In this document: piece by piece, positions 21,090-30,925 of the stretch
How the letters are laid out: every line of letters begins with the position of its first letter
Numbering within the stretch: position 1 is the first letter of the stretch
Assembly (NCBI RefSeq): GCF_009729055.1
Contig: NZ_CP045484.1
Coordinates: forward strand, 1-64,000
Source of the DNA: Sulfurisphaera ohwakuensis
Lineage (GTDB): Archaea; Thermoproteota; Thermoprotei_A; Sulfolobales; Sulfolobaceae
Length of the DNA stretch: 64,000 nt
Direction: 5' to 3'
The notes under the pieces: model-generated
Database searches by the model: none
Told to the model about the DNA's origin: nothing
What the model saw: only the letters and a program-made list of their open reading frames with translations
Translations under genes and position numbers: made by a program

Positions 21090-21386
21090 ATATACCCTCG
21101 AATTAAATAATAAATTTCCAAAGTTATAACCTTATCTTAGTTGATTATCTATTTCCTAACGATAAGGGTGAGTTAGGTTTTTATTGTAATATTCTCGTAG
21201 AATTAGAATAATTCTATGAAGAATATATATCATTATCTCCGTTAAGTCCGTGTGTAATTCCTTGTTCTCTTCAATTGTAAATATACAATCAATTTTTTGA
21301 CTTCAAAAATGAGAAAATAAAGTGAATTTATAAAAGAGCCGTGAAAGACCCTTATATAGTTATTCGTATTAATTACACATTGGACG
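21090..21386. other. Intergenic region before the mini-IS110 element
   Basis: About 300 AT-rich bases. It contains the third copy of the TTAATTACACATTGGACG repeat (21367-21386), which forms the left flank of the mini-element. No gene seen. Confidence 0.4.
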
Positions 21387-21731
21387 CTCCTACGGGGAAT
21401 CCCCGCAATTCAACCGAACGATTAAAGTCAAGTATTACGAGAGTAAAATAAATAATCGAGTCAAGTAAGGAGAAAACAATATAAGCCCAGGTACACTATG
21501 TGGATAACACCCCCTTTAAGAGGCTGGCTGTGAAGCCCCTAGAACGATCTAACAAGCGGGGATAAAACCCCGTGTAGGAGAGTGTAACAAATTACCCTAG
21601 GGGCTGAACATATTTGATACTATGCAAGAAAATCAAGGTATTACAATCACAAGATTTATATAAAGGATACATGTCTAACACACACAGATTCTCGGTTCCC
21701 ACAGGAATGTTAGAGGCGTAGCATGTGGAGC
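21387..21731 (+). mobile_element. Non-autonomous IS110-family derivative (no transposase)
   Basis: About 345 bp related end to end to the element at 29449-30923: left end CTCCTACGGGG against CTCCCACGGGG, a conserved internal RNA-like module, and right end GTTAGAGGCGTAGCATGTGG against GTTAGAGGCGGTAGCATGTGG. The transposase gene is missing; about 70 bases of unrelated sequence join the two ends. CT flanks both sides (21387-21388 and 21732-21733). Confidence 0.75.
21484..21609 (+). ncRNA. Candidate bridge RNA module of the mini-element
   Basis: The outer stem AGCCCAG/CTGGCT encloses a guide-type internal loop (5' side GTACACTAT, 3' side CTTTAAGAG). A second stem AGCCCCTAG/CTAGGGGCT encloses GGGGATAAAACCCC and GTAGGAG (21574-21580). 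GTAGGAG is the exact reverse complement of the element start CTCCTAC (21387-21393), as expected for a donor guide. Transcription not tested. Confidence 0.6.
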
Positions 21732-21978
21732 CTCTCACGATTTTCCAATAAATCGTCAAAATTCGATTAGCATTTTTTGTAAATTCTAGGAATATATAAT
21801 TTTCAAAATATTAAGCTTCAAATTAAAATCTTCTATCTTAAAACGGTTATATTACCATATATCCTAAGATAGAAATTAAACATTTATGTAAATATTCATT
21901 AAAATTATAGAATATAACTACTTTCCTACAAATGCTAAATGAGAAGTTTTAAATACTAAAAAATAGGAGAAAGAATAT

Positions 21979-28469: not shown

Positions 28470-29434
28470 TCACTTAGGCTCATAAGGCTTATTATTATAC
28501 CAAACACTCCATACAATCCTAGCCAACTTCCTTGCCAAAGCAGTATATAACTTCTTACCTCGTAACCTATCCTTATGAGACTCATAAAACTTCAACAACG
28601 TTGGGTTCCTAGAATAATTCATCTTTGCAAGAAAGTAGAATAAACTACGCAAATACTTATTACCCCTCTTAGAAATCCCCCTACTTATCACACCCCTACC
28701 ACTCCTCTCCACAATTGGGTCTAAACCACAATAAGCAACAAAAGATTCTGGCTTAGGAAAGCGCCTAATATCACCAACAACACCAATAATTATACCGGCT
28801 GCAAGCCTCCCAATTCCCGGGATAGTCAACAAAACGTGATCCTCGGGAACTTGCTCCTCAATCATCCTCCTAACTTCTTTCAATTTCTCTTGCGTTTCCA
28901 AGAGTGTTTTTGCCAATACTCTTATTTCTTCGAGTACTATTGGTGTGTATTCTAGGTTGTAGAGCTCTTCTTGTGTAAAATCCCCATTTGCGAGTTTTTC
29001 TAACCTTTCCTTGTTTATCTTGTCGTTGTCACTTACTAGGAATAGTGTCCTCTTTAGCCTGTTCTCGTATTTTACTTCTATATCCTTGAGGAAGAGGTAG
29101 AGTGTTACTAACTCCTTCAAGGGGTTGTATTCATATTCTTTGGCCTTGTCAGCCATGTTTTCTAATTTTTCAGCGTCATAAAAATCTGTTTTCTTTCCTC
29201 TAAACTCCTTCTCCCTCGATAGTATGTTGGGGCTTACTTGTAGTACTTTTATTCCTCTCTCTTTGAAGTATTGGCAAGGCCTTATTGCGTATACTCCAGT
29301 GGGCTCTAAAACTATTGCGCAAGGTTTCATCTTGAGGATTTCTTCATAACCCTTCTTATTATTCTCGTATTTTCTTTCCCTCCCCCTACTTGTAATTAGA
29401 TAATCTTTTGATATATCTATTCCTATTACCCCTA
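28470..29434 (-). pseudogene. IS110-family transposase (5' end damaged)
   Basis: DEDD domain: VGVIGIDISKDYLI, LEPTGVYAI, KKTDFYDAEKLEN. Tnp20 domain: IPGIGRLAAGIIIGVVGDI, YCGLDPIVERSGRGV and KRGNKYLRSLFYFLA. The coding frame extends upstream of the first ATG (29330) through the essential GIDISK motif, but no ATG, GTG or TTG is available in that frame; a GTG at ~29434 would work only with a one-base shift in the AAAAGGG run. Insertion of the other element at 29449 also separated it from its upstream region. Probably inactive. Confidence 0.8.
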
Positions 29435-29540
29435 CCCTTTTATCACACCTCCCACGGGGGATTCTCGTAAATCAAGTGAACGAATAAAACCAAGTATTAC
29501 GAGAGTAAAATAAATAAACAAGTAAGGAGAAAAACAACAT

Positions 29541-29667
29541 AAGCCCAGTCACACCAAGGGGATAAAACCCCCTCATATAGGCTGGCTGTGAAGCCCCTAG
29601 AACGATCTAACAAGAAGGGATAAAACCCCGTGTGGGAGGATGTAACAAATCACCCTAGGGGCTGAAC
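29541..29667 (+). ncRNA. Candidate bridge RNA with matching target and donor guides
   Basis: Stem AGCCCAG/CTGGCT (29542-29548, 29582-29587) encloses TCACACC (29549-29555), the hairpin GGGGATAAAACCCC, and ATATAGG (29575-29581). TCACACC equals the left target plus core C, and ATATAGG is the reverse complement of CCTATAT across the core and right target. The second stem AGCCCCTAG/CTAGGGGCT encloses GTGGGAGG (29632-29639), the reverse complement of CCTCCCAC at the element start. This is the guide logic of IS110 bridge RNAs. RNA ends are not known. Confidence 0.7.
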
Positions 29668-29739
29668 AGTTAACATTATGTAAAGAAAAACGGTATTATG
29701 AACACAAAAAATATCTTGTAAAACGAGAAATATTCAAAC

Positions 29740-30895
29740 ATGACAAATGATTTTATAAGCAAAGCCTTTGCAATAGACATATCACAAAGCAAACTAACAG
29801 CAGCAAAGGGAGAACTAGTCCTAAAACATGAAAAACCATCAGTAACAATCAAAGAAATAAAAGAATTCCCATACAACGACAAGGGAATAGAAGAGTTAAT
29901 AAAATTCCTCGGAGAATACAAAAGCGGGATAGTAGAGGCGACAGGAGTATACTTCTACTACCTACACGAGAGACTAACAGAAAAAGGATACAAGGTAACA
30001 GTAGTAAACCCGGCACAATTAACAGAAATACTAGGGAAAAAGACAGATAAACTAGACACACAAAGACTACTAGTAGCATACATGACCGGGGTAATAAAAG
30101 GATCACACATACCAACAGGAGAAATAAAAGAACTAAGAGAGTTAACAAGACACAGGGAAAACCTAGTAAACAAAATAACACAAGTAAAAAACGAGATAAG
30201 AAAAACCTTGGAAATCGCCGGTTATAAAATACAACCATTCGACAAGAGAGGAAGACAACTACTGGAAAAACTAGCAAAAGGAGATAAGCAAGGAAGAGAA
30301 GGAAGAGTTAAAGGAGAAACTAGGAAGAAACTTGAATGACGCAGAAAGGCTAACACTAAAACAACTAGTCGAGTTATTGAAAAGCTTGGAGAACATGGTT
30401 AAGGAAGTGGAGAACATGATAATGTCCAAGATACCAAAACCGGTAATAGAGTTATCCAAGATACCCGGAATTGGTTTAATCACAGCAGCAATAATTTATG
30501 CTGAATTCGGTGATATATCACGTTTTCCAAACTCAAAGGCAGCTAGGGCTTACGCAGGCTTAGCACCTAGAACCAAGCAGAGTGGTAATAGTGAGTTCCA
30601 CTCTGGTATGATTAGGGGTAACAAGCACTTACGCAAGTGTTTCTACTTAGCTGCTAGGAGTGCCAGAGGGCTTGAACCATTTAACGAGTTTTACGGGAGA
30701 CTCATTGCTAGGGGCAAGAGTGTAATACAAGCTACATGTGCACTTGCGGGGAAGCTTGCTTGCATAGCATATCACGTTTTAAAGGACGGTGTTTACAAGG
30801 GCATAGTCAAGAAGCGTCTTAGGATACCCAAGGGTGGGGAAGTTGATGTCAAGGATTTCAACGTGGGAGACGCACTTGACTCGTTATCCCCTTAG
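29740..30895 (+). pseudogene. IS110-family transposase in two frames (frameshift near 30280)
   Basis: Frame one (29740-30339): FAIDISQSKLTAAKG, VEATGVYFYYLHERL and KKTDKLDTQRLLVAYMTG form the DEDD domain. Frame two continues from ~30278 (KEISKEEKEELKEKLGRN) through SKIPGIGLITAAIIYAEFGD, YAGLAPRTKQSGNSEFHSG (Ser region) and RGNKHLRKCFYLAA. Continuity is restored by skipping one base in GCAAAAGGAG (30274-30283). Either a recent inactivating insertion or a programmed +1 shift at the A-run; a TTG at 30332 can start only the second part. Confidence 0.8.
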
Positions 30896-30925
30896 GTTTG
30901 TTAGAGGCGGTAGCATGTGGTGCCT

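Follow-up and report, generated by a model that had tools for sequence, protein, structure and literature searches.

The window analysed here, which comprises the first 64,000 nucleotides of contig NZ_CP045484.1 of the archaeon Sulfurisphaera ohwakuensis, carries a short element that starts with CTCCTAC at position 21387, ends with GTGGAGC at 21731 and is followed by a further CT. An original prediction, made from the sequence alone, had described this 345-bp stretch as a derivative of an IS110-type insertion sequence (IS) that lost its transposase and kept its RNA module, with both ends and the central module in common with an element at 29449 to 30923. Our analysis bears this out: nt 1–266 of the two elements are 82% identical (E 2.7e-67), the right-terminal sequence is shared, and no open reading frame (ORF) of at least 60 amino acids was found inside 21387–21731. 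From comparisons across the Sulfolobaceae, we propose with good confidence that the element belongs to an old non-autonomous IS110 family, whose members would carry their own guide RNA and borrow a recombinase.

Anatomy of the element

The features of the element and of its transposase-bearing counterpart are collected in Table 1. The reading frames of the latter match DEDD_Tnp_IS110 (PF01548) and Transposase_20 (PF02371) in Pfam. In the predicted fold of the module the target loop is closed by AGCC/GGCT and the donor loop by AGCCCCTAG/CTAGGGGCT, both in the consensus and, for the donor stem, also in the single sequence; the single-sequence folds have z-scores of -2.30 (window copy) and -3.62 (29449 element). 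The RNA is predicted to begin a few nucleotides before AAGCCC and to end after CTAGGGGCTGAA. No inverted pair is visible at the ends of the element, and only the CT is common to element and site; as expected for IS110 there are neither inverted ends nor a longer target duplication, so that the label of miniature inverted-repeat transposable element (MITE) fits loosely.

Table 1. Positions of the features discussed in the text
Feature	Position	Strand	Remarks
Miniature IS110-type element, transposase-less	21387–21731	+	345 bp counting one CT core copy; relatives alignable end to end
Left end CTCCTAC	21387–21393	+	CT core plus left donor half
Bridge-RNA-like module	21470–21619	+	match to covariance model R1 (E 2.1e-33, 164.8 bits), the module being one of the 25 sequences used to build R1; fold z -2.30
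Left target guide AGGTACACTAT	21489–21499	+	target loop; position by analogy with matching copies
Right target guide CTTTAAGAG	21514–21522	+	target loop
Donor-loop closing stem, 5' strand AGCCCCTAG	21534–21542	+	
Donor-loop stem, 3' strand CTAGGGGCT	21597–21605	+	
Right donor guide GTAGGAG	21574–21580	+	reverse complement of left end
TATA-like TTTATATA	21655–21662	+	miniature-specific right half
Remnant around former transposase start (ATG) and deletion junction	21671–21722	+	common to miniatures; short in-frame stub
Right end TGTTAGAGGCGTAGCATGTGGAGC	21708–21731	+	
Left flank, target half ...TTGGACG	21352–21386	+	terminal sequence of another repeated IS
Other target half CTCTCAC	21732–21738		
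Cognate transposase-bearing IS110 element	29449–30923	+	own guides fit own flanks: right 5/7, left 6/6
Transposase of the 29449 element, frameshifted	29740–30895	+	two ORFs, 29740–30339 and 30332–30895

The original prediction had pointed out that the donor-guide-like GTAGGAG is the exact reverse complement of the start CTCCTAC while the 29449 element has GTGGGAG with CTCCCAC, and had taken this for a compensated change. Both pairs are as described and the coordinated change is real, but it did not occur on the window element, whose state is the inherited one: of the 49 copies with both parts readable, 42 have CTCCTAC/GTAGGAG, most transposase-bearing copies included, and the change therefore belongs to the lineage of the 29449 element (copies L002, L167 and L168; copies and genomes are referred to by our L and G numbers). 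A third coordinated pair, CTTCCAC/GTGGAAG, is present in L186. With these three coordinated pairs, 46 of the 49 readable copies have a right donor guide exactly complementary to their left end, although many of the copies are near-identical and the 46 matches are not 46 independent events; guide and left end are mismatched in L135, L141 and L142.

As to the right half, a TATATA at the place of the TATA-like sequence was noted in 7 of 9 miniatures inspected and did not appear in the parts of six full-length copies that were inspected. It lies upstream of the transposase-start stub, and in a circular form of the element it would read over the junction in the direction of the RNA.

A family of miniature elements in the Sulfolobaceae

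The further transposase-less copies of about 345 bp that the original prediction had suggested looking for do exist. In 31 Sulfolobaceae genomes, a search with the 345 bp returned end-to-end or near end-to-end transposase-less relatives in G030 (89% identity), G014, G012, G013 and G015, and a further search added an end-to-end match in G004 (67%). A covariance model built from 25 modules recognised at least 77 modules in 11 of these genomes, a count that may be a lower bound since 99 first-look candidates were scored per genome. When the sequence downstream of each of the 77, over at most 1700 nt, was checked for a transposase or a right end, 42 modules proved to be followed by an IS110 transposase of at least 300 amino acids and 5 by part of one, while 16 had a right end 106–113 nt downstream and no transposase of their own, which is the geometry of the miniature. 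Downstream of the miniature L006, 82 amino acids of transposase are seen because L006 is inserted in an IS110 gene. Neither a detectable transposase nor a right end at the miniature distance was present for the remaining 14; among them, L139 represents a different deletion with its right end at 82 nt. The 16 modules of miniature geometry span seven genomes (G000, G004, G012, G013, G014, G015 and G030) of three genera, and as the distance from module to right end is 111–113 nt in 14 of the 16, we infer one ancestral deletion and not repeated ones.

These miniatures have moved. L008 and L017, both in G012, are nearly identical and have the same guides at two unrelated sites, and joining the flanks of either gives a sequence that can be aligned over its whole length with uninterrupted homologues, from related genomes or from other copies of the same repeat. 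At L017 an extra CTC at the left junction was considered as slippage of the element end; this was rejected, because the uninterrupted homologue has equal length there and the CTC belongs to the target. The miniatures have a common architecture and deletion junction, spread as a unit and are inserted exactly between the halves of uninterrupted homologous sites. They are short transposase-less copies present at several sites together with an autonomous relative, as in a MITE-type family.

The home genome alone would leave room for another view, namely that the window copy is a one-off internal deletion of a full-length IS110 element that never moved again and whose RNA module is inert: there is a single miniature there, its guide misfits its flanks, and it is accompanied by one cognate full-length element with a frameshifted transposase and by partial copies. 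At the level of the family this view is already contradicted by the 16 modules of the same geometry in seven genomes, by L006, which is 89% identical over the full length in different flanks, and by the L008/L017 pair, and we regard it as very improbable. A second view takes the module for an independent, non-mobile gene whose RNA, as a regulator or decoy, controls an IS110 recombinase. That the module is kept where coding potential was lost, and that 14 more modules lack both a detectable transposase and a right end at the miniature distance, would suit it; the conserved ends, the multiple copies and the clean insertions at sites with uninterrupted homologues speak against it, and we give it very little weight, although a decoy role may exist as a side effect.

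Outside the 31 genomes, in collections that may leave out near relatives, the right-end pattern had no match in general genome contigs, the plasmid and phage collections gave no match, and the core pattern had three matches in viral contigs. The 44 matches of the core pattern in general genome contigs (from unrelated bacteria and a few archaea) were read as chance.

Some copies are of interest in themselves. L006 and L025 lie within IS110 transposase genes and interrupt potential suppliers of recombinase. In L134 (G014) and L138 (G012) a deletion runs between the two GGGGAxxAAACCCC hairpins of the target and donor loops, removing the right target guide and leaving the right donor guide. L137 (G014) and L145 (G030) are right-end-only fragments of about 90 bp in two genera, each preceded by ACAAAGCA.

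Agreement between guides and flanks

In the target loop, the left guide stands after AAGCCC and the right guide before GGCTGGC. For ten miniatures the match of each guide to the flank of its own copy was compared with that of permuted pairs (20000 permutations), the left guide being scored in three registers and with as many as two terminal CTC trimmed, equally for own and for permuted pairs. This set of ten excludes L142 (its flanks are those of L141), L140 (no left end could be placed), L139 (a different deletion), L143 (diverged) and the broken copies L130, L134, L136–L138 and L144. Own guides agreed with own flanks better than permuted ones on both sides: on the left the matches summed to 44, compared with 31.2 on average for permuted pairs (P = 3/20000), and on the right to 40, compared with 30.7 (P = 281/20000). 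As a positive control, the transposase-bearing copies, with near-identical full-length ones collapsed to 16, gave 78 against 51.0 on the left and 69 against 34.8 on the right, both with 0/20000.

The clearest case is G012, where the comparison took in all 16 of the modules that the model detected; they hold 11 distinct two-sided guides (L138 has no right guide). For each of the three intact miniatures of this genome, the own guide ranks first of the 11, and the share of random CT sites that reach its score (bgP) is 0.00093 for L008, 0.00000 (0 of 40000) for L017 and 0.00252 for L025. None of the full-length modules found in G012 carries the guide of these miniatures. Between L025 and L008, one extra base in the right guide accompanies a one-base difference in the flank, CTTCTTAA versus CTCTTAA. 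Among full-length elements, L163, L164 and L165 of G015 are closely similar, with right guides that are one or a few bases apart; in L164 and L165 the right guides change in step with the right flanks (CTATTA versus CTAATAT).

It might be argued that the miniatures do move but are directed in trans by bridge RNA from full-length elements, while their own guides stay idle. Bridge RNA does function in trans in published assays (PMC11208160), the donor guides are identical in the miniatures and in most full-length copies, and some miniatures, such as L132, fit other guides better than their own. An agreement with the own guide that exceeds permutation, and three intact G012 miniatures that prefer, out of 11, a guide found in no full-length module of that genome, make this explanation unlikely in our view. 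The miniature family rather seems, from the guides and flanks compared, to bring its own targeting RNA and to borrow the recombinase.

Several observations nevertheless weigh against a self-guided family. Although both sides fit in L008, L017, L025 and L141, only the left side fits in L006, L131 and L133, and neither side in the window copy L001 (right 3/7, left 3/6), in L132 (3/7 and 2/6) or in L135 (4 and 2). The left guides of L131 and L133 are those of the full-length L160 and L161 in the same genome, so the source of the guide is ambiguous there; the full-length L160 itself shows a similar half mismatch, which suggests that half-fitting copies may be recombinants. The left register is free to vary in the scoring, and a left donor guide was not recognised in the module. 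Regarding the RNA itself, a search of Rfam over 21200–21900 at up to E = 1 gave no match, and structural covariation is weak: 2 of 20 pairs are changed on both sides, pairing is 90.1% against 89.6% in shuffled sequences, and the covariation term of RNAalifold, +0.47, means no support. The support is weak because the stems hardly vary; covariation was too weak to serve as proof of an RNA structure and was rejected as such.

History of the window copy

The target loop of the window copy had been said not to match its present flanks, TTGGACG-CT-CTCACGA, and this is so, since its score is reached by 20% of random CT sites (bgP 0.20). The original prediction left it open whether the guide had decayed or been retargeted, or whether the element had been moved otherwise. 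With at most one mismatch, the target predicted from the loop, GTACACTCTTAAAG, occurs at 19 sites in the 31 genomes against 39 for the reversed control, and at none in the home genome. The expected target is thus not enriched, and active retargeting of this copy was rejected on that ground.

Decay of the guide after insertion fits better. The uninterrupted site, TTGGACGCTCTCACG, is present in several copies in G030 as the terminus of another repeated IS, and termini of this type with small differences also occur in G000, G004 and G020; the transposase adjoining this terminus in L222 matches DUF772 in Pfam. When the guides were tried on the flanks of the window copy, that of L006, the miniature of a sister species, was the best of 31 (right 6/7, left 4/6, bgP 0.00065), a value of about 0.02 once corrected for the 31 distinct guides compared. 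The right flank of L130, a broken miniature in G030, is CTCTCACGG, as an L006-type guide predicts. Between L001 and L006, 5 of 16 guide positions differ, compared with 38 of 329 positions elsewhere (one-sided Fisher p 0.036). Most likely, to judge from these comparisons, the element was inserted into the IS terminus under an L006-like guide, and the guide drifted afterwards.

The window copy is probably immobile now. The only cognate transposase of the home genome is frameshifted, which probably leaves the copy stranded. Intact transposases of 386 amino acids are present in L168 and L171. In the system described in PMC11187229, circle formation requires target-derived flanks on both sides, so that a misfit copy would be locked unless a fitting RNA were supplied in trans. 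The proposal of a miniature guide-carrying element mobilised in trans is supported at the level of the family, through the 16 of 77 modules and the agreement of own guides with own flanks.

The target of the window copy is the conserved terminus (...ACACATTGGACGCTCTCACG) of a multi-copy IS (L221–L234), and in G014 a decayed left end, CTCCTACGAGGAATCCACGC, occupies the same position of the same terminus (L229). A gene of a different IS110 clade (match 28494–29375, minus strand) has the 29449 element at its 5' end, a case of IS110 targeting IS110; the left flank of the full-length L151–L154 in G012 is near-identical to that of the 29449 element (window 29400–29449). The full-length L175 and L180 of G013 are in the same target sequence and differ at their left junctions by CTCCTC.

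Proposed mechanism and possible exchange of modules

We propose that a deletion took the transposase gene out of an IS110 element and spared its two ends and the entire bridge-RNA module. Each miniature would then encode its own bridge RNA, whose target loop would pair with both halves of the insertion site around the CT core and whose donor loop would pair with the ends of the element, and the DEDD recombinase would be supplied by a related full-length IS110.

The two halves of the miniatures do not always have the same history. The tree of the RNA half places L131 with the full-length L160, L163 and L165 (99/98), whereas that of the right half places it with L001, L006 and L132, miniatures of another genus (99/98). 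For the RNA half, monophyly of all 11 miniatures is rejected (p-AU, the approximately unbiased test, 0.003), and so is a grouping of L001, L006, L131 and L132 (p-AU 0.008), a group that was named after the trees had been seen. This conflict points to recombination between miniatures and full-length elements that swapped guide-bearing halves. The miniatures might, we suggest tentatively and with rather less than even confidence, form a pool of exchangeable guide cassettes, self-guided and swapping RNA modules with full-length elements by recombination. If this is true, one recombinase lineage would be served by many independently targeted, recombinase-free guide carriers.

Relation to known systems and significance

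The RNA of IS621 is laid out as here, between the left end and the transposase start, with a target loop that bears a left and a right guide and a donor loop complementary to the element end. The likeness to IS621, as a bridge-RNA IS110 element described by Durrant et al. (2024, PMC11208160), extends to the dinucleotide core and to the DEDD/Transposase_20 recombinase of the cognate element; unlike IS621, the miniatures have no recombinase gene, live in archaeal hosts and have no recognised left donor guide. In the IS1111/IS110 seekRNA elements described in 2024 (PMC11187229), the RNA also matches both target strands and target-derived flanks matter. There, transposase and non-coding region supplied in trans move cargo between the ends of ISEc11, and an artificial mini-IS was moved with transposase and RNA in trans; that mini-IS is engineered, whereas the transposase-less form described here is natural and carries its own RNA module.

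Among the elements of Sulfolobus, the MITEs SMN1 (320 bp) and SM3A (164 bp) are likewise short, non-coding and non-autonomous, and depend on a transposase in trans (PMC3718332). They were compared by description only; that description ties SMN1 to ISC1733 and SM3A to ISC1058 and presents neither as IS110-derived or guide-carrying. Identity with SMN1-type MITEs was accordingly rejected, since SMN1 is linked with ISC1733 rather than with IS110. As described in PMC10883916, the CRISPR-binding protein Cbp1 binds a different IS110 element of Sulfolobus, ISC1229, in its 3' flank.

Bridge-RNA IS110 elements are already known, as are engineered mini-IS with RNA and enzyme supplied in trans, from the work described in PMC11208160 and PMC11187229. 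In the open-licence literature of PubMed Central we found no description of IS110 elements that have naturally lost the transposase and retained the bridge RNA. Judged by its sequence, the miniature would behave as an IS110 element whose genome is split, without being an autonomous member of the group. A natural family consisting of ends and guide RNA without recombinase would show that this split already occurs in nature. It would give many natural pairs of guide and target for one recombinase lineage, and it would offer a clean test of how guides can change, since excision requires a guide to fit the old flank and insertion requires it to fit the new site.
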